NCBI RefSeq assembly: GCF_900109575.1
Contig: NZ_FOAF01000007.1
Location: forward strand, 62,001-126,000
Source: Olivibacter domesticus
Lineage (GTDB): Bacteria; Bacteroidota; Bacteroidia; Sphingobacteriales; Sphingobacteriaceae
Length of the DNA: 64,000 nucleotides
Reading direction: 5' to 3'
Part shown: in pieces, positions 9,467-62,905 of the stretch
Layout: every line of letters begins with the position of its first letter
Numbering within the stretch: position 1 is the first letter of the stretch
Position numbers and translations under genes: made by a program
Notes under the pieces: model-generated
Databases searched by the model: none
What the model was told of the DNA's origin: nothing
The model's input: only the letters and a program-made list of their open reading frames with translations

Positions 9467-10153
9467 ATGACTAAAATACTTTTAATAGAAGATGATAATC
9501 GTTTATCGGCATTCATTCAAAAAGGTTTAGAAGAACACTTATATTCAGTGACGAGCATATCGACCGGCTATGAAGCGCTTGCCATCACACAGGATATCTC
9601 TTTTGATTTAATTATTTTAGACATTATGCTACCGGATATTTCTGGTTTTCAGATTTGTCTGGCCTTACGGGAACGGAAAATAACGACTTCGATCATTATA
9701 TTGAGCGCGTTAGATACTACTGAAGAGAAGATAAAAGGTCTACAAGCAGGGGCAGATGATTACCTCGGCAAACCTTTTCATTTTGAGGAATTGCTAGCCC
9801 GTATAAATGCGCAGATAAGGCGAAAATCCTTCGAACAAGGGATTACAGACTCCCAGAAGTATGCTGATCTGGAAATTAATATGGCAGAACAGAGTGCCAG
9901 TAGAGCTGGTAAAACCTTATTTCTTTCTCCAAGAGAATATAAACTTTTATTATTCTTATTGAAAAATCGTGAACGTGTCGTTACGAGAACGCAAATAGCA
10001 GAGGCCGTTTGGGATATTCATTTTAATACACATACCAATGTAGTAGATGTATATATTAATTACCTCCGGAACAAAATTGACAAAGGGTTTCAATTTTCGT
10101 TGATTCATACCGTAAAGGGTCGGGGATATTTATTTAAACATAAAGAAGAATGA
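9467..10153 (+). CDS. OmpR/PhoB-family response regulator
   Basis: DNA-binding transcription factor switched by phosphorylation from the sensor kinase encoded next. It has 228 residues from the ATG at 9467. I prefer this to the ATG at 9449 because MTKILLIEDD is the standard receiver start and GGAG lies five bases before it. The receiver domain (1-120) has the acidic pocket Asp9/Asp10, phospho-acceptor Asp52 in LIILDIMLPD, and the conserved Lys in GKPF near 103. The OmpR winged-helix output domain (about 130-226) ends in HTVKGRGYLF. Its stop overlaps the kinase start by 4 bp (ATGA), indicating translational coupling. The stimulus and target genes are not visible. Confidence 0.93.
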   Translation: MTKILLIEDDNRLSAFIQKGLEEHLYSVTSISTGYEALAITQDISFDLIILDIMLPDISGFQICLALRERKITTSIIILSALDTTEEKIKGLQAGADDYLGKPFHFEELLARINAQIRRKSFEQGITDSQKYADLEINMAEQSASRAGKTLFLSPREYKLLLFLLKNRERVVTRTQIAEAVWDIHFNTHTNVVDVYINYLRNKIDKGFQFSLIHTVKGRGYLFKHKEE

Positions 10154-28162: not shown

Positions 28163-28846
28163 ATGCAAAGGAACAAACGCTTAAATCCCACTATTTTTAA
28201 CACAAGATATGTGGCACTCTCTAAATTAAGGGATACTACTTTACAAATTATCCGTAACATCTCTTCAAGTCAGAAAGATCTCGATTTAATTGATTTTGGA
28301 TGTGGTGAAATGCCATACCACCAGGCAATAGAACCATTAGTCAAAAACTATATTGGCGTGGATCTAAAAATTAACCCGCTAGCACATCATCATATCGATT
28401 ACGACAGTAAAACAACCCTTCCCGACGAATTTACGGATATCATTTTATCTAATCAGGTTTTGGAGCATGTTGATTCGCCTGAAGGCTACCTGGATGAGGC
28501 CTGGCGGCTTCTTAAACCTGGCGGTACATTAATACTTTCTACACATGGTTACTGGTATTACCATCCTACTCCTTATGATTATTGGCGCTGGACAAGCGCT
28601 GGTTTACAAAAACTTATCGCAAGCAGAAATTTTGAAATAAAAGAATTTACCGGAGTCCTGGGTTTATCAGCAAGTGGTTTACAATTGTTTCAAGATGCAT
28701 TAATTAATAAATTACCTAAATTTTTACATGGTTTTACTGCGCTCATCATGCAGTCGGTCATATTCCTATTTGACAAGATTCATTCACAGAGCCAACGCAA
28801 TAGAGATGCTGCACTGTACGTAGTATTTGCGAAAAAACCTCTTTAA
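28163..28846 (+). CDS. Class I SAM-dependent methyltransferase (first of three)
   Basis: A 227-residue methyltransferase from the ATG at 28163; an upstream TTG frame of seven codons is unlikely. Motif I is LIDFGCGEMPYHQ, the acidic end of strand 2 is in YIGVDLK, and the post-motif text LSNQVLEHVDSPEGYL and LLKPGGTLILSTHG is typical of Methyltransf_11 proteins of polysaccharide clusters. YYHPTPYDYWRWT is a motif shared by surface-glycan methyltransferases. It opens the cluster and probably methylates a sugar or lipid carrier. Its last 11 codons (LYVVFAKKPL) are found again, slightly changed, before the third methyltransferase gene. Confidence 0.82.
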   Translation: MQRNKRLNPTIFNTRYVALSKLRDTTLQIIRNISSSQKDLDLIDFGCGEMPYHQAIEPLVKNYIGVDLKINPLAHHHIDYDSKTTLPDEFTDIILSNQVLEHVDSPEGYLDEAWRLLKPGGTLILSTHGYWYYHPTPYDYWRWTSAGLQKLIASRNFEIKEFTGVLGLSASGLQLFQDALINKLPKFLHGFTALIMQSVIFLFDKIHSQSQRNRDAALYVVFAKKPL

Positions 28847-28895
28847 CTTAAGGTTTACAGATAGCAGACCAGCTAAGAGAAAGAAATAATTCCCC
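28814..28895 (+). repeat. Duplicated junction, copy 1: end of methyltransferase 1 plus remnant of a methyltransferase-3 start
   Basis: Within 28819-28865 the DNA matches 29791-29837 at about 41 of 47 positions. It covers the last codons of methyltransferase 1, its stop and the following spacer. Just after it, 28866-28890 reads A-D-Q-L-R-E in one frame and then loses frame, matching the start of methyltransferase 3 (MSDQLREEE). So a broken 5' end of a methyltransferase-3-like gene sits here. Confidence 0.7.
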
Positions 28896-28996
28896 TTTAC
28901 ATTTGGTGTAGGTATTATCGGAAGAGCACCTAATACGGGTTACACGGATAAGGTAAAAAGAATAGCAAGCTTGACATAAGAAATAAACAAAACTAG

Positions 28997-29758
28997 ATGT
29001 TAAGAAAAATAATACGTGGAATTTTTAATAAATCGGGTTACGATTTGGTAAAAACAGACAACGGGTTGATAAACGGTTTACCTGCCGACTTTGACGAACC
29101 TACTATCGACACCTACAATAAGATAAGACTCTTTACCATGACCACGCCCGAGCGAGTAGCGGCTTTATGTGCGGCCGTAAATCATCTCGTTCGAAATAAT
29201 ATTCAAGGTGATTTTGTAGAGTGTGGGGTCTGGAAAGGAGGGAGCACCATGGCAGCTATTGATACTTTATTAAAAGCAAAAGATAAAAGCAGGGAAATAT
29301 ACCTCTATGATACTTTTGAAGGCATGTCTGAACCTACTGAACATGACAAAACTTTCACAGGTTTAGCTGCCGATGAAATGCTTGGCCCAGGTAATAAACA
29401 AGTGGCTGCATCAAATTGGTGTTATTCCGCCCTGGAGGAAGTGGAAAAAAACATTAATAGTCTTAATTATCCTGCTTCGCAGATACATTATATCAAAGGG
29501 AAAGTTGAAGACACTATTCCTCAAACCGTCCCTCAAAAAATAGCTTTGCTAAGGTTAGATACAGATTGGTACGAATCTACCGCTCATGAATTAAAGTACC
29601 TTTACCCCTTGCTCGTTCCGGGAGGAATAATCATTATTGACGATTATGGCCATTGGAAGGGCGCACGTAAAGCAGTAGACGAATATATAACATCCCAAAA
29701 ACTTTCTTTGTTTCTGCACCGCATTGATTACTCAGGAAGGATGGCTATTAAACACTAA
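28997..29758 (+). CDS. TylF/MycF-family O-methyltransferase
   Basis: A 253-residue methyltransferase of the macrocin O-methyltransferase type, which methylates sugar hydroxyls in a metal-dependent manner. Key text: GDFVECGVWKGGS is motif I, EIYLYDTFEGM holds the acidic SAM-ribose residue, and LRLDTDWYEST and GGIIIIDDYGHW carry the metal-binding acids. It probably methylates a sugar of the surface glycan. The flanks are unusual: a degenerate methyltransferase-3 start lies before it and a methyltransferase-1 end after it, so this gene appears to have been inserted into, or rearranged within, the cluster. Confidence 0.85.
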   Translation: MLRKIIRGIFNKSGYDLVKTDNGLINGLPADFDEPTIDTYNKIRLFTMTTPERVAALCAAVNHLVRNNIQGDFVECGVWKGGSTMAAIDTLLKAKDKSREIYLYDTFEGMSEPTEHDKTFTGLAADEMLGPGNKQVAASNWCYSALEEVEKNINSLNYPASQIHYIKGKVEDTIPQTVPQKIALLRLDTDWYESTAHELKYLYPLLVPGGIIIIDDYGHWKGARKAVDEYITSQKLSLFLHRIDYSGRMAIKH

Positions 29759-29879
29759 AAGCAGTGTATATTAAATAGTCTATTGCTTTATGTTGTATTT
29801 GCGAAAAAACCCCTTTAACTTTAGGGCCACAGATAGCATATCATGTCAGATCAATTGAGAGAAGAAGAAATAATTTCAT
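29757..29879 (+). pseudogene. Duplicated junction, copy 2: mosaic of flippase start, methyltransferase-1 end and methyltransferase-3 start
   Basis: Bases 29766-29795 resemble the flippase gene start (31761-31790): over the 40 bp 29756-29795, about 31 positions agree, and the reading QCILNSLLLY parallels the flippase QGILNSISLY. At LY the frame runs straight into VVFAKKPL and stop (to 29817), identical in protein to the end of methyltransferase 1. The spacer after it repeats the one after methyltransferase 1 and leads into the intact third methyltransferase gene at 29843. The stretch is a fused remnant with no start codon, not a working gene. Confidence 0.6.
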
Positions 29880-30616
29880 ATTATAATACAGTAGTACAGA
29901 CCAAGCTTCACAACTACCTCTATGGGAATCCGAGGGTAGATGCGGTCTGGAAAACCATCTTGGCCTACAAACCGAAGCAAAACACCCCATTAAAGGTGCT
30001 CGAAGTAGGTTGCGGCGTTGGTGGGGTTTGTAGCCGTATGCATAAAAAATGGCCCAATGCCTATATTACTGGCATAGATATCAGTACTAAATCAATAGAA
30101 ATAGCGAATAAACTTTTTGCTAATAGTAAAACCAAGTTTGTTGAGGGAATTTTAACTCCCGAAACTTTTAATGAAACATTTGACTTAATTATTTTCATGG
30201 ATGTCTATGAACATATTGCTGTTCACGACCGTCCAACTGTACATGCCGCCATTAAAAAACTATTAAATAACAAAGGCCGATTAGTATTGTCGGTGCCCAC
30301 TCCTCATAACTTAAAATGGTCTGCCGTACATAAACCAGAAACCATGCAACCGGTAGATGAACATATCTCTTTATCCGTTGTGAACCAATTGGCATTGGAC
30401 ACAGATACCGAAGTACTTTTATATAAAATTAAAGATATTTGGAACGTGGGGGACTATGCGCATATTGTTTTTGAGAAGAACAGCGATTTTGAGAAAGCTT
30501 TTTTTCATTCAAAACCTGTAAGTTTTCAACATAAAATTGCGAGAGGTATAAACCGAATTCAAAACAAACTAATGGGTAGAATAAAAGAAATGAATGCTAG
30601 AAAAAAACTGAAGTAA
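29843..30616 (+). CDS. Class I SAM-dependent methyltransferase (third of three)
   Basis: A 257-residue methyltransferase. VLEVGCGVGGVCSRM is motif I, ITGIDIS the acidic loop, and LIIFMDVYEHI and NKGRLVLSVPTP are Methyltransf_12/23-like motifs. The C-terminus is basic (KLMGRIKEMNARKKLK), suggesting loose membrane contact. It ends 2 bp before the GT4 gene, so the two are translationally linked. It probably modifies a sugar or lipid-linked glycan end. The substrate is unknown. Confidence 0.82.
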   Translation: MSDQLREEEIISYYNTVVQTKLHNYLYGNPRVDAVWKTILAYKPKQNTPLKVLEVGCGVGGVCSRMHKKWPNAYITGIDISTKSIEIANKLFANSKTKFVEGILTPETFNETFDLIIFMDVYEHIAVHDRPTVHAAIKKLLNNKGRLVLSVPTPHNLKWSAVHKPETMQPVDEHISLSVVNQLALDTDTEVLLYKIKDIWNVGDYAHIVFEKNSDFEKAFFHSKPVSFQHKIARGINRIQNKLMGRIKEMNARKKLK

Positions 30617-30618
30617 GC

Positions 30619-31737
30619 ATGGATTCTTTTAATATATGTATTATAAAGCCTAATAAAGCAAGCTATTCAGAGACATTTATTCAGACCCAGATTGATTTAC
30701 TGAAAGGAGAAAAGTACATTCTATATGGGGGTGACTTTCCTTTATATCAACCTAATGGAAAATTTCTTATTTCTTCTTGGCTTGGCATAGCTTACTACCT
30801 TATACAGAAGAGAATTTTTAAGAAAAGGGATATTTCTATTAGAAATAAGGCACTTGTTAAATACCTCAAAAAGCATCAAATCTCCGTGGTTTTGGCGGAG
30901 TACGGAACCGTTGGAGCGACTATTGCCAAGGCTTGCTCAATGGCGGGCATTTCCCTGGTAATACATTTTCATGGCGTGGATGCTCATCGTTATAAACTTT
31001 TAGCTTCTTTTAAAGAATTATATCAGCGGGCTTTTGCATACGCCGCTGCTTTAGTGGTTGTTTCGGGAGATATGCGTAATAGCCTTATTAGATTAGGTGC
31101 GTCTGAAGAAAAAATAAAATTAATTCCTTATGGCGTAAATACTTCGTTATTTAAGCAAAGCAACCTATCAGAACAGCTTAATTTTTTATTTATAGGTCGA
31201 CTGGTCGATAAAAAAGCGCCCTTAATAGTTATATCTGCATTTGCGGAAGTGATTGATAAATTCCCTAATGCCAAATTACGAATGGTGGGTGACGGTCCGT
31301 TATTACAAGCAGCACAATCGCTCATGCGGGACTTAGCTCTTGAAAAAAGTATAACTTTTACGGGTGTATTAAGTCGACCAGAAATCATAAAAATCATGGC
31401 CGATACCTATTGCTACGTTCAGCACTCTGTAACGGCAGCTGACGGTGATATGGAGGGGACACCAAACACCATACTGGAAGCCTCTGCGGTTGGATTACCA
31501 ATCATTAGTACGAAGCATGCAGGGATTAAAGAGGCCGTAATCGATGGTGTAACGGGCTTTTTAGTCGACGAATACGATAAAGAGGCGATGGCAAGTAGAA
31601 TGGTTGAAATAGCATCTTCCCGTGCATTGGCGGAAGCGATGGGAAATGCGGCACATGCTCATATACTTAAACATTACAACATAACAGAACAGATAGCCAA
31701 GCTAGACGCTGTTCTGCAAAAAGCGGCTAGGTGTTAA
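30619..31737 (+). CDS. GT4-family glycosyltransferase
   Basis: A GT-B fold retaining transferase of 372 residues. The N-terminal acceptor domain has HFHGVDAHRY. The C-terminal donor domain starts LFIGRLVDKKAP, has MVGDGPLLQAAQSL, and carries the E-x7-E-type signature in EGTPNTILEASAVGLPIIST. The wording is close to colanic-acid WcaL-type and other surface-polysaccharide transferases. It adds one sugar to the lipid-linked repeat at the inner membrane face. It is spaced 2 bp from the previous gene and 1 bp from the flippase gene. Confidence 0.88.
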   Translation: MDSFNICIIKPNKASYSETFIQTQIDLLKGEKYILYGGDFPLYQPNGKFLISSWLGIAYYLIQKRIFKKRDISIRNKALVKYLKKHQISVVLAEYGTVGATIAKACSMAGISLVIHFHGVDAHRYKLLASFKELYQRAFAYAAALVVVSGDMRNSLIRLGASEEKIKLIPYGVNTSLFKQSNLSEQLNFLFIGRLVDKKAPLIVISAFAEVIDKFPNAKLRMVGDGPLLQAAQSLMRDLALEKSITFTGVLSRPEIIKIMADTYCYVQHSVTAADGDMEGTPNTILEASAVGLPIISTKHAGIKEAVIDGVTGFLVDEYDKEAMASRMVEIASSRALAEAMGNAAHAHILKHYNITEQIAKLDAVLQKAARC

Positions 31738-31738
31738 T

Positions 31739-33226
31739 ATGAATCTAATCAAAAAACAGGGTATATTAAATAGCATCTCGCTCTATGCTGGTACTGCAAT
31801 AGGATTTCTTAATCTTATGATTATTTTCCAGCGCAGTCTCACGCTGGAAGAGATTGGCTTCTATAATATCCTGATCGCACTGGTCCTCTTATATATTCAG
31901 TTTGCAACACTAGGTATCAGCAACGTTATTACGCGATTTTTACCCGTCTTCAGAACAAAGGATAATCATCATTATGGTTTTGCCACCTATATTTTTATTA
32001 TTTGTGCTATTACCTTTTCCATATTCAGCATAGGTTTCTTTGTATTAAAGGACGAAGTAATTGCCCTAAAAGCCGGTGATGGCGGCGCGTCCTTAATGGA
32101 TCGGTACTATCCATATTTTTTACCTATCGCTATTTGCGCCACCATTTATCTCGTTCAAGAATCTTTTGCCCGTACCGCTTTCAGAACTATTTTCCCTTCC
32201 TTTTTGCGGGAAGTAGTATTGCGCCTGTTCAGCACCGTTGGAGCTGTTCTTATTGCTTTAGGCACCTTAACTTATAAAGGGTTTATCGATCTATACCTGG
32301 CAGGGAATATATTGATTGTCCTCATCATCACCTGGTACCTATATAAAATAAAGGTGTATAAATTTGCAAAACCAGAGCCCCTTTTAAAAAAAGAATACAT
32401 CCATATGTTGCGTTTTGGCTTCTATTCGATGTTGGGAGGAAGTTCTTTTGCTCTTTTACAGAATCTCGATGTCATCATGCTCAAGATTTTTATGGGTGAG
32501 GGAATGGTTGGTATATATGCGACATTTTTTGCTATGGCTCAGATTATCACCTTATCATCCAGGGCCCTGAACATTACTTCTTATCAAATTATCGCGAATG
32601 CCTGGAAAGAAAATGATCTAGGTAAGATAGGTAAAATATATAAAAAGACTACTTTAATACAGTGTTTAGCAGGCAGTCTATTGCTGATCGGATTGATCGT
32701 AAATAGAGATAGCCTGTTAATCCTGCTAAAAAAACCAGAGTATCCCGGTTATTTTGATGTACTTATTATCGTAGGCCTTGCTTTTTTAGTGGATGCTACC
32801 GGTGGAATTAATCAAGCCATTATAGGTTTCTCCAAGCAATACCGCTTAGTAATGATTTTCTTACTCTTCGCTGCTGCAGCTTGTTGTTTGTTCAATATAC
32901 TGTTAATTCCTACGTACGGGCTTGAAGGAGCAGCTTTAAGTTATTTGCTTACCATGCTAGTAACAAACTTTAGCTTTTGGTTATACTTGAAATTAAAATT
33001 TAAGCTACAACCATTTAATTTTAAAATTGTACTAATAATAATTATCTCGATGATAAGTTTGGTAGTAGGATATTATATTCCAAAAGCACCTCATTTTGTA
33101 TTTGATATCATCATACGGTCAAGTATTGTAGGACTAATTTTTGGCATATTAACCTATTGTTTTCGAATTTCGACTGATATCAATGAAATGATTGATAAAT
33201 ATATTCTACGGAAAAAAATAAAATAG
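31739..33226 (+). CDS. Wzx-like polysaccharide flippase
   Basis: A 495-residue membrane protein with about 12-14 predicted helices and few charges between them, of the MOP superfamily (polysaccharide synthesis/MATE-like). It would move undecaprenyl-linked glycan units across the inner membrane. Typical features are the N-terminal amphipathic stretch ILNSISLYAGTAIGF, the mid-protein MLGGSSFALLQNLDVIMLK with a conserved Asp, and a polar C-terminal tail. Its first 50 bp are echoed as a remnant at 29757-29795. No Wzy polymerase or export gene is seen in the cluster. Confidence 0.85.
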   Translation: MNLIKKQGILNSISLYAGTAIGFLNLMIIFQRSLTLEEIGFYNILIALVLLYIQFATLGISNVITRFLPVFRTKDNHHYGFATYIFIICAITFSIFSIGFFVLKDEVIALKAGDGGASLMDRYYPYFLPIAICATIYLVQESFARTAFRTIFPSFLREVVLRLFSTVGAVLIALGTLTYKGFIDLYLAGNILIVLIITWYLYKIKVYKFAKPEPLLKKEYIHMLRFGFYSMLGGSSFALLQNLDVIMLKIFMGEGMVGIYATFFAMAQIITLSSRALNITSYQIIANAWKENDLGKIGKIYKKTTLIQCLAGSLLLIGLIVNRDSLLILLKKPEYPGYFDVLIIVGLAFLVDATGGINQAIIGFSKQYRLVMIFLLFAAAACCLFNILLIPTYGLEGAALSYLLTMLVTNFSFWLYLKLKFKLQPFNFKIVLIIIISMISLVVGYYIPKAPHFVFDIIIRSSIVGLIFGILTYCFRISTDINEMIDKYILRKKIK

Positions 33227-38685: not shown

Positions 38686-39174
38686 TTACGATTCCTTTGC
38701 CTGTAAAATTGCGCGGGTAAGATCATTGGGATGTTGAGTTCCTACTACGTAAACTAAGCCATCCCGATCGGTTAACCAAACGGCGGACTTACCCCCAGCA
38801 TAGAACCGTATTTTGCCCTTTTGATGCAAATTATAAACAGGGCTGTTAATCAAATAAGGGCTATATGCTGCATTCTCTACTTTAACAATGCTATTCAAGT
38901 CAATCTTTATGAGTCGAGCAGTCCACAAACCTTGCAGTATAACACTTTTATTCTTTACGGTAATTCTGTAATGTAGCATATACATCATGACAATGGATAC
39001 TAGCAAGATGATACAACCAACCAAAAGGAACAGTTGATGGTTGCGTTCTCTTTCCGAACTGATATAATACGCTGTAAAGCAAAACAGGGCCATCACCAAA
39101 CGAACGCTCACCCAGCCACGGTCACGGCCTAGGTACTGATTTTCTACAAACAAAGGTTTATCTGCTACTTCCAT
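38686..39174 (-). CDS. Two-helix membrane protein with PH-like domain
   Basis: A 162-residue protein from the ATG at 39174 (MEVADKPLF), whose start overlaps the tilS stop by 10 bp, indicating coupled expression. Two helices (about 23-38 and 45-66) are followed by a soluble beta-rich domain. The text YRITVKNKSVILQGLWTARLI, split over about residues 67-88, and DLNSIVKVENA resemble the bacterial PH (bPH2) fold. I do not recognise a named family. A membrane scaffold or envelope role is a guess. Confidence 0.6.
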   Translation of the reverse strand: MEVADKPLFVENQYLGRDRGWVSVRLVMALFCFTAYYISSERERNHQLFLLVGCIILLVSIVMMYMLHYRITVKNKSVILQGLWTARLIKIDLNSIVKVENAAYSPYLINSPVYNLHQKGKIRFYAGGKSAVWLTDRDGLVYVVGTQHPNDLTRAILQAKES

Positions 39175-40508
39175 TTTATACATTCTAAGGTAACAACTTT
39201 TTTTGTTTTATCTGTAATTTTATACCTGTCGTCTATTCTGTAGGGAGCTACCCATATAACATCCCCATTACCATTTACAACAACAGGAACTCTCATCTTG
39301 TCTGTAACGGGAATTTTTAACGAGATAAAAAAATCGCTCAATTTCTTTTTGCCTTTCATACCCAGTGGCTTAAACCAGTCGCCCTCTCTCCAATGCCTGA
39401 TCTGTAAGGGAAATACAAGCTCTTCTTCATCAACCTGTATTTTATCAAAAGTATGCTCCACTTTCTCCACTTGGGAGTTTTGAGCAGAAATAATAAAATT
39501 GCCGAATTTTTTCTGTTCACCTGGGGTTAGTGGGATGAGCTCTTGTAGCGGTTGATCCATTAAGGGTTCCAAAATCAGGTCTTTTCGGCTCATCACCAAG
39601 CTATGCGTAACCGAATTAAAATATTTACCTGATTGGTTCTTCTTCGTCCAAACAGATAACAAATCATCTAAAACATCGGAAGTAAAATTAAATGGCCTAA
39701 AAAGCTCATATAATAATGTTCGTACCGGATGTAACTGTTGCAACTTTTCCATACTGATTGTATAGGAGTTTACGTCTCTTGCGATGAAAAGCTTTTCTCT
39801 TAAAGTTGTGGTATATGTTTTTAACAGCTCATTCAATTCTTCAAATCGCTCAGCATTTTCAATGAACGTTTTCTCTAATGACGGATTTATTTCCTTAAGT
39901 TTTGGTATAATCTCTAACCGGATTTTATTTCTAGTATATTTAGTAGAGAAGTTAGATTCATCATCCCGATAAGTTAGTTTCCACTTATCGATAGCCGCTT
40001 CGACCTCTTCTCGTATTAAAAACAGCAAGGGCCGAATAAAACGATCTCTCTTAGGCAAGATGCCATGTAAGCCCGCGATTCCTGTGCCGCGTGTTAGGTT
40101 TAATAACATGGTTTCTATCGCATCGTTCTGATGATGCGCCAGCGCCACATAATCATATTGATGTTGCTGTCTTAAGTCTTCAAACCATTGATATCGTAAT
40201 TCCCTTGCAGCCATTTCGATCGACATCTTCCGCTCTCTTGCTATTTCTTCCGTATCAAAAGAAGTTGCATAAAAAGGGACATTTAATTGACGCGCTAAAT
40301 TAAAGACGAGGGCTTCATCCATTTCTGAGCTTTCTCCCCGCAATTTAAAATTGCAGTGTGCGATACCGAATGAATAACCTGCCTTAGCAAATAAATGTGT
40401 CATCAATACGGAATCCTTCCCTCCACTCACTGCCAACAGTATGCGCTCATTTTTCTCGAACAGTTGATTCTCATCATTAAAGTTCAAAAATCGACTTAAC
40501 AGGTCCAT
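39165..40508 (-). CDS. tilS: tRNA(Ile)-lysidine synthetase
   Basis: Adds lysine to C34 of the CAU-anticodon isoleucine tRNA so that it reads AUA; essential. It has 447 residues from the ATG at 40508 (MDLLSRFLNF). A longer frame exists, but the -7 box at 40513-40520 lies inside that extension. The ATP-pyrophosphatase P-loop is SGGKDS (28-33), FGIAHCNFKLRG and YVALAHHQNDAIET follow in order, then the TilS substrate-binding domains. LKIPVTDKMRVPVV near the C-terminus is typical. Confidence 0.95.
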   Translation of the reverse strand: MDLLSRFLNFNDENQLFEKNERILLAVSGGKDSVLMTHLFAKAGYSFGIAHCNFKLRGESSEMDEALVFNLARQLNVPFYATSFDTEEIARERKMSIEMAARELRYQWFEDLRQQHQYDYVALAHHQNDAIETMLLNLTRGTGIAGLHGILPKRDRFIRPLLFLIREEVEAAIDKWKLTYRDDESNFSTKYTRNKIRLEIIPKLKEINPSLEKTFIENAERFEELNELLKTYTTTLREKLFIARDVNSYTISMEKLQQLHPVRTLLYELFRPFNFTSDVLDDLLSVWTKKNQSGKYFNSVTHSLVMSRKDLILEPLMDQPLQELIPLTPGEQKKFGNFIISAQNSQVEKVEHTFDKIQVDEEELVFPLQIRHWREGDWFKPLGMKGKKKLSDFFISLKIPVTDKMRVPVVVNGNGDVIWVAPYRIDDRYKITDKTKKVVTLECIKWK

Positions 40509-40512
40509 AGGC

Positions 40513-40520
40513 CAAAGGTA
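40513..40520 (-). promoter_or_regulatory. -7 box of tilS, 4 bp before the ATG
   Basis: On the minus strand TACCTTTG-GCCT-ATG, an exact -7 match whose start site would fall at the start codon. No well-spaced -33 TTG was found. It supports the ATG at 40508 and a leaderless message. Confidence 0.5.
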
Positions 40521-40554
40521 GATAAAATAGTTTATTGCTTTATAACGGCAAGGT

Positions 40555-40633
40555 ATAAGTAGTAAGACATAAGACGTAAGTAGCAAGACATAAATAGCAA
40601 GATTTAAGGTTAGGGATACATCTTGCTACTTGA
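40555..40633. repeat. Phrase-repeat tract with inverted partner upstream of tilS
   Basis: The words agtaagacataa, gacgtaagtagcaagacataa-like and atagcaaga follow one another with small changes. An 11-bp word, AAGTAGCAAGA (40578-40588), has its exact complement, TCTTGCTACTT, at 40621-40631, giving a hairpin with a 32-base loop. It lies in the tilS/OstA divergent spacer. The wording is similar in kind to the tracts at 5711 and 8508. Confidence 0.5.
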
Positions 40634-61747: not shown

Positions 61748-62905
61748 ATGCGTATAGAAGTCGCTAAAAGATTACAACATACTGAAGAATATTATTTTTC
61801 TAAAAAATTAAGGGAAATTGATGAACTTAACAAACAGGGCTTCAATGTCATTAATTTAGGTATTGGGAGCCCTGATCTTCCTCCTCATCCTTCGGTTATT
61901 GAAGCGCTGAATTATTATGCTTCGCTCCCTAACACACATGCGTATCAAAACTACAAGGGTATTCCTGCATTGAGAAATGCAATCGCTGCCTGGTACAAAA
62001 AGTTTTATGATGCTGATATAAACCCTGAAACAGAGGTGCTCCCGTTAATCGGGTCTAAAGAGGGTATCATGCACGTATGTATGACTTACTTACAAGAAGG
62101 AGACGAAGTGCTTATTCCCAACCCAGGATATCCAACCTATAGCGCTGCTGTAAGGCTTACAGGTGCTGAAGGCGTATATTATAACTTAAAGGAAGAGAAT
62201 AAATGGCTTCCAGATTTTGAGGAATTGGGGAAACAAGACCTAAGTAATGTTAAAATTATGTGGATAAACTATCCGCATATGCCCACTGGCGCACAAGCGA
62301 GTCAAACATTTTTCCAAGAATTGGTTTCTTTTGCCAGGAAGCATAACATTTTAATCTGTCATGATAATCCATACAGTTTTATACTGACTGATCAACCTAG
62401 TAGCCTTATGTCTGTTGATGGAGCGAAAGATGTCGCTATTGAATTAAATTCTTTCAGCAAATCCAGCAATATGGCCGGATGGCGGGTAGGCATGCTCATC
62501 GGTAATCAAGAGCGCGTTAATGAGATTTTAAGGTTTAAGAGCAACATGGACTCGGGCATGTTTTTACCACTTCAGATGGCCGCTGTAAAAGCACTAGCAC
62601 TTGATAAAGACTGGTATGCTGATCTGAACAACATATACAGGGCCCGAAGAGCTAAAGTTTATGTTTTACTTGATCTGCTCAATTGTACTTATGACATCAA
62701 CCACGTGGGCATGTTCGTTTGGGCTAAAATACCGCAACAATATGAGGACGGCTATCAACTCAGTGATAAAATACTAAGTGAATCGACCGTATTCATAACT
62801 CCTGGCGGAATCTTCGGAAGTGCTGGTAATTCTTACATACGTGTAAGCTTATGTACCTCTGAGGAAAAGCTTCAGGAAGCTATTGATAGAATAAAATTGA
62901 TATAA
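61748..62905 (+). CDS. PLP-dependent aminotransferase, class I
   Basis: A fold-type I aminotransferase of 385 residues. FNVINLGIGSPDLPPHP is the usual opening, SKEGIMHVCMTYLQEGDEV the cofactor-loop text, and SFSKSSNMAGWRVG contains the PLP Lys. YIRVSLC near the C-terminus holds the carboxylate-binding Arg. The sequence is nearest to the LL-diaminopimelate/aspartate aminotransferase group. Because it is followed 21 bp later by tyrA, it probably transaminates prephenate or hydroxyphenylpyruvate in tyrosine and phenylalanine synthesis. The rest of the aromatic cluster would lie beyond the window or elsewhere. Confidence 0.85.
   Translation: MRIEVAKRLQHTEEYYFSKKLREIDELNKQGFNVINLGIGSPDLPPHPSVIEALNYYASLPNTHAYQNYKGIPALRNAIAAWYKKFYDADINPETEVLPLIGSKEGIMHVCMTYLQEGDEVLIPNPGYPTYSAAVRLTGAEGVYYNLKEENKWLPDFEELGKQDLSNVKIMWINYPHMPTGAQASQTFFQELVSFARKHNILICHDNPYSFILTDQPSSLMSVDGAKDVAIELNSFSKSSNMAGWRVGMLIGNQERVNEILRFKSNMDSGMFLPLQMAAVKALALDKDWYADLNNIYRARRAKVYVLLDLLNCTYDINHVGMFVWAKIPQQYEDGYQLSDKILSESTVFITPGGIFGSAGNSYIRVSLCTSEEKLQEAIDRIKLI

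Follow-up and report, generated by a model that had tools for sequence, protein, structure and literature searches.

Tandem duplication followed by loss is a route to new gene order that is best known from mitochondrial genomes. Additive or illegitimate recombination in which one joint is made at a short shared sequence is known as homology-facilitated illegitimate recombination, and bacterial polysaccharide clusters exchange gene content by recombination in flanking genes. Old bacterial duplications often leave little trace. Here, we analyze a glycan cluster beside bipA in Olivibacter domesticus, within a window of 64,000 nucleotides (the whole stretch of DNA analyzed; positions 62,001 to 126,000 of contig NZ_FOAF01000007.1), in which the same gene junction stands on both sides of a TylF-family methyltransferase gene. 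Both junctions probably survive from a tandem duplication, as the left edges of its units; the first unit would have lost its MT3 and GT4 genes, and the TylF gene looks borrowed. Among the papers listed by a literature search aimed at these genera, none concerned this locus, as judged by title or abstract start.

The order of genes in the window is bipA, methyltransferase MT1, TylF, methyltransferase MT3, a GT4 glycosyltransferase, a Wzx-like flippase, a GT2 protein, a DUF5672 protein, and a second GT2 protein. The TylF protein scores 150.6 bits against PF05711, for which the Pfam gathering score is 23, and thus belongs to this family. No mobile-element protein was found among the nine cluster proteins scanned in Pfam, consistent with the earlier proposal, made in a sequence-only reading of the window, of gene gain without a transposase. 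The features considered below, with values for the congeneric genome G003 where given, are as follows.

28163..28846, plus strand: MT1, intact methyltransferase (Methyltransf_23/11), 76% to G003, ending LYVVFAKKPL and stop
28814..28866, plus strand: copy 1 of the junction, MT1 tail and spacer, probable left edge of the first unit, 45/53 to copy 2
28867..28891, plus strand: putative MT3 start relic (ADQLRE...) with deletions, a gapped continuation of the repeat
28892..28996, plus strand: spacer, possibly (a hint only) what remains of the 3' end of a GT4 gene from the TylF-bearing cluster type
28997..29758, plus strand: TylF-family methyltransferase (PF05711), intact, 253 aa, with a g15-like source in the tree
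29759..29785, plus strand: relic of Wzx codons 6-14, probable right edge of the first unit, matching the window's own Wzx and that of G003
29786..29838, plus strand: copy 2 of the junction, MT1 tail relic and spacer, probable left edge of the second unit, 45/53 to copy 1
29786..29795, plus strand: proposed joint at the LY codons, CTTTATGTTG in copy 2 against CTCTATGCTG in Wzx codons 15-16, placement inferred
29816..29823, plus strand: TAACTTTA, differing at one base from the flavobacterial -7 box TAnnTTTG, which may be a promoter for MT3 and the genes of its unit but lacks significance when this spacer is taken by itself
29843..30616, plus strand: MT3, intact methyltransferase of the second unit, 77% to G003
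30619..31737, plus strand: GT4 glycosyltransferase of the second unit
31739..33226, plus strand: Wzx-like flippase (Polysacc_synt PF01943)

The repeat on both sides of the TylF gene, which had been pointed out in the sequence-only reading, is real. The copies lie in direct orientation at a spacing of 972 bp and are identical at 45 of 53 positions, and a gapped alignment extends them to 28891 and 29875, taking in the MT3 start. Where that reading had compared 28819-28865 with 29791-29837, the similarity stands, while its count of about 41 of 47 positions becomes 40 of 47 when measured. As also described there, both copies carry the MT1 end VVFAKKPL and its stop, which in MT1 itself lies at 28846; copy 1 then runs into a broken MT3 start (ADQLRERN) and copy 2 into the intact MT3, which begins MSDQLREEEII. 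Outside these two places, neither copy had a match better than E 0.06 in the window, and in the organism's own genome only the two known places were detected at E ≤ 0.001. Chance similarity or an assembly error is so improbable as to be practically negligible. Nothing speaks for it beyond one chance match at 40518, whereas the repeat has a local score of 67, when the best of ~2,000 pairs of 200-mers drawn at random from the window reached 31, the copies differ at 15% of positions, which makes a collapsed or doubled read unlikely, and on both sides collinearity with G003 is preserved, from bipA through to the YfhO-like gene.

The sequence-only reading had missed that the 27 bp separating the TylF stop from copy 2 (29759-29785) resemble the start of the flippase gene, which lies 2 kb further downstream. 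They match the window's own Wzx gene at 31754-31773 in 18 of 20 positions and the Wzx of G003 in 23 of 27 with a 2-base gap, and in neither case was any of 5,000 shuffles as good. Of 127,743 real 27-mers, drawn from both strands of the window minus the relic and the Wzx start, none reached either score. When the relic was compared with the whole of the window's own Wzx gene or with the G003 block, 0 of 300 shuffles were as good in each case, against 66 of 300 for the block of G448, a genome of genus g15. In frame after the TylF stop, the scar reads KQCILNSLLLYVVFAKKPL and stop, to be compared with KQGILNSISLY in Wzx and LYVVFAKKPL and stop in MT1. Its translation, KQCILNSLLLY-VVFAKKPL and stop, corresponds to Wzx codons 6-16 (31754-31786 in the intact gene, the stretch that the relic resembles) fused to the MT1 tail; the intact Wzx protein starts MNLIKKQGILNSISLY and the MT1 protein ends ALYVVFAKKPL and stop. 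Without gaps, the scar matches the window's own Wzx at 29 of 38 positions, the final 11 bases of which are also MT1 tail. Thus, a novel joint is present in which the Wzx head relic, the probable right edge of unit 1, is followed directly by the MT1 tail, the probable left edge of unit 2. Two other assignments of the 27 bp were discarded: as extra MT1 tail (1,922 of 5,000 shuffles as good), and as a Wzx start of the G448 type (129 of 5,000), which is weaker than the matches to the window's own and G003 Wzx. One further place in the window, 40518-40542, has a chance-like match of 22/25 to the Wzx relic plus MT1 tail bases and scores 35 against the relic with five tail bases, where the window's own Wzx scores 30. 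Because this place outscores Wzx, apparently by chance, location carries part of the argument for the Wzx relic. The match falls within the start of a TTG-started open reading frame on the other strand (39165-40586), which looks tilS-like.

The Wzx relic bears directly on how the repeat arose. In a simple insertion, a TylF fragment would have landed between MT1 and MT3 and caused about 80 bp of their junction to be duplicated, by target duplication or repair of a staggered break. The single junction without TylF in G003 and the outside origin of TylF both speak for such an event. However, it leaves unexplained why a Wzx head of native type separates TylF from copy 2; this stretch is closest to the window's own and G003 Wzx and not to the G448 Wzx. 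In a target-site duplication, the insert ends directly at the repeats without native cluster DNA; here, the flippase relic intervenes. We therefore reject simple insertion with target duplication and regard simple insertion as a whole as quite improbable. Similarly, the earlier suggestion that TylF came in with a duplication of the junction alone finds no support, since the native-type Wzx head adjoins copy 2. That reading had also offered the remains of a tandem array as an alternative, and this is the better reading. In this view, each copy of the repeat marks the left boundary of a duplicated block rather than a target-site duplication. Because the stretch from TylF to copy 2 resembles the flippase start, TylF would once have adjoined Wzx at the joining of the second unit.

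Five genomes of the genus, including the window's own, were compared. In G003, MT1 and MT3 lie 28 bp apart with a single junction, the gene order from bipA to the YfhO-like gene equals that in the window, and no match to TylF was obtained at E ≤ 0.001. G003 is therefore the kind of relative that had been called for as a check, one lacking TylF and having one junction. In the other three congeners, MT1 had no match at E ≤ 0.001, and MT3-like matches were at most weak (25-29%). No strain at an intermediate stage was present among the five genomes. The proposal that MT1 once abutted MT3 is borne out by G003 and by 17 further MT1-MT3 loci with the genes 12-65 bp apart. Across the 18 other loci examined (11 from a family survey and 7 from a survey of genus g15, G448 included), none has an insert between MT1 and MT3, the aligned genes being separated by 12-65 bp.

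The family survey covered 399 genomes taken from a larger group and detected MT1 in 33 (E ≤ 1e-60), MT3 in 15 (E ≤ 1e-30), and TylF in 18 (E ≤ 1e-60); in 15 of these 18, TylF adjoins MT1. Two layouts prevail beside bipA: MT1-MT3-GT4-Wzx (11 loci besides the window) and MT1-GT4-TylF-Wzx (14 genomes). Among the 33 genomes with MT1, 12 have a linked MT3, 15 a linked TylF, 7 neither, and only the window's own has both (Fisher p 0.003, ignoring relatedness). TylF sits between GT4 and Wzx in 14 of 14 MT1-linked family loci besides the window, and also in G448. Similarly, among 149 genomes of genus g15, TylF was found in 16 and MT3 in 17, and both only in G448, where the order is MT1-MT3-GT4-TylF-Wzx. 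In this genome (L206, 3914-5795), GT4 is a mosaic with an MT3-type 5' part and a TylF-type 3' part, followed by TylF and an MT3-type Wzx. Its first 80 columns are 0.95 identical to the MT3-type locus L162; over columns 280-360, identity is 0.62-0.93 to six TylF-type loci and 0.47-0.68 to three MT3-type loci. The mosaic GT4 of G448 indicates that TylF can enter by recombination in GT4. Several genomes depart from the common layouts or make the pattern less sharp: G022 has a split cluster (L170 and L171), with MT1 beside bipA on one contig and MT3-GT4-Wzx on another; G113, G090, and G160 carry a second kind of TylF elsewhere in the genome; and in L178 (G328), MT1 and GT4 are separated by a distant Wzx-like gene (32%) that runs in the opposite direction.

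TylF looks to have been borrowed horizontally from the g15 (Mucilaginibacter-like) lineage. In a tree of 19 rows, built without the three unlinked TylFs L196-L198, which an earlier tree had included, and without the G437 and G462 fragment contigs, the window's TylF nests in the g15 TylF clade (support 96/98) beside L029 and G448 (support 84/86), and a topology keeping the 14 g15 TylFs together without it is rejected (p-AU 0.02). Because its terminal branch is long (0.43), this placement is good rather than final evidence. Unlike TylF, the window's MT1, GT4, and Wzx group with G003 in their trees. Compared with six relatives, the window's TylF has a pN of 0.15-0.20 and a pS of 0.72-0.84, and is thus under purifying selection.

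These observations fit a model in which the duplicated unit would have spanned the last MT1 codons, MT3, GT4, and TylF, up to about Wzx codon 16, a block of roughly 2.8 kb by inference. The end of one copy would have been fused to the head of the next within a short sequence common to Wzx and MT1, CTnTATGnTG, which encodes LY. The product of the doubling would have been MT1-MT3-GT4-TylF-Wzx' joined to MT1'-MT3-GT4-Wzx. Subsequently, the redundant MT3 and GT4 of the first unit were probably deleted, which would leave TylF with a relic of the MT3 start before it and relics of the Wzx head and the MT1 tail after it, all ahead of the intact second unit. Because the first five Wzx codons are absent from the scar, the model needs one more small deletion. 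TylF most likely would have arrived by recombination into the slot between GT4 and Wzx, as in G448. The GT4-Wzx border of the second unit is clean, with 1 bp between the genes in the window and 5 bp in G003, which makes it probable that TylF was never present in more than one unit. This could have come about if a donor allele with TylF was joined to a recipient without it; alternatively, TylF may have entered after the doubling. It is also conceivable, if rather unlikely, that both units had TylF and suffered complementary losses, the first of MT3 and GT4 and the second of TylF. Such a history predicts an identical anatomy, and the order MT1-MT3-GT4-TylF-Wzx that it starts from exists in G448; however, the clean GT4-Wzx border would require a second, exact loss of TylF. 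As for timing, the MT1 tails of the two copies differ at 4 of 33 bases, all synonymous, while MT1 synonymous sites are near saturation between the window and G003 (pS 0.84), which places the doubling after the divergence from G003. At all four differing sites, copy 2, the relic, agrees with G003; dating by such shared bases was abandoned because G003 may be the one that has changed.

The duplication model also predicts scars between copy 1 and TylF. The MT3 start relic taken alone is weak, given that 289 of 6,358 control stretches equaled its mean for the window's own and G003 MT3, and it is convincing only as the continuation of the repeat. For a GT4 scar ahead of TylF, there is a hint only. 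By eye, 28892-28996 offers GYTDKVKRIASLT against DIKDRINTLAAIL, suggesting a GT4 relic, and against 15 T-type upstream regions, 45 of 2,120 real-DNA controls were as good. Against native GT4 ends, this was true of 1,810 of 3,179 such controls, and against the G448 GT4 end of 812 of 2,000 shuffles. Among 1,000 shuffles, 79 were as good in local, 49 in anchored, and 417 in protein comparison, and a profile of the whole GT4 gave no match to this stretch. The same spacer contains, at 28898-28905 and ~92 bp before the TylF start, an exact TAnnTTTG (TACATTTG), which could be a putative TylF promoter.

A TAnnTTTG box has been described for Flavobacterium (PMC9723704). Tentatively, and with the odds against it, the repeat may have been retained for a promoter that it carries for the MT3 unit, with a box of this kind, a reading that would explain the persistence of the repeat and not its origin. 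An exact TAnnTTTG occurs in 7 of 11 other MT1-MT3 spacers and a one-mismatch version in 3 more, and copy 2 keeps TAACTTTA like G003, where copy 1 has TAACTTAA. Moreover, in L194 (G355), MT1 is internally deleted and its tail ahead of MT3 is kept; at ~9820-9950 on the minus strand, a short start-like open reading frame and the MT1 tail with an exact TAACTTTG stand directly before MT3. However, each exact box would turn up in 2-10% of shuffles, and the seven loci are relatives of one another; boxes with one mismatch, including that of G003, arise in 20-70% of shuffles, and the copy-2 slice in the spacer comparison starts one base late.

The event is thus a known kind of process that is unusually legible. 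As in duplication followed by loss, a block would have been doubled, the copies partly lost, and the gene order changed, with relics remaining at the edges. It differs in that the loss falls in one unit only and in that the TylF that was kept is of outside origin, and it is therefore not a plain reshuffle of native genes. As in homology-facilitated illegitimate recombination, one joint would lie in a short shared stretch and the other side may have involved ordinary homology, except that the microhomology here is read from decayed DNA. The alternative gene content at one site beside bipA and the mosaic GT4 in G448 are like exchange in polysaccharide clusters, except that here a readable joint was left. 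The edges of the units and the joint can still be read, and among relatives there are examples of the single-unit state, of the order seen in the donor type, and, in G448, of a hybrid that arose independently. The locus also cautions that a repeat around a gene need not be the signature of an insertion. With somewhat less than even confidence, we suggest that, family-wide, the site beside bipA accepts either MT3 or TylF as its second methyltransferase, and that a single additive recombination of the two cluster types, joined at a short common stretch, brought both together in this strain and put TylF before MT3, which would probably give two methyl marks on the glycan. Altogether, the locus illustrates how a glycan cluster can acquire a gene and alter its order without a mobile element.
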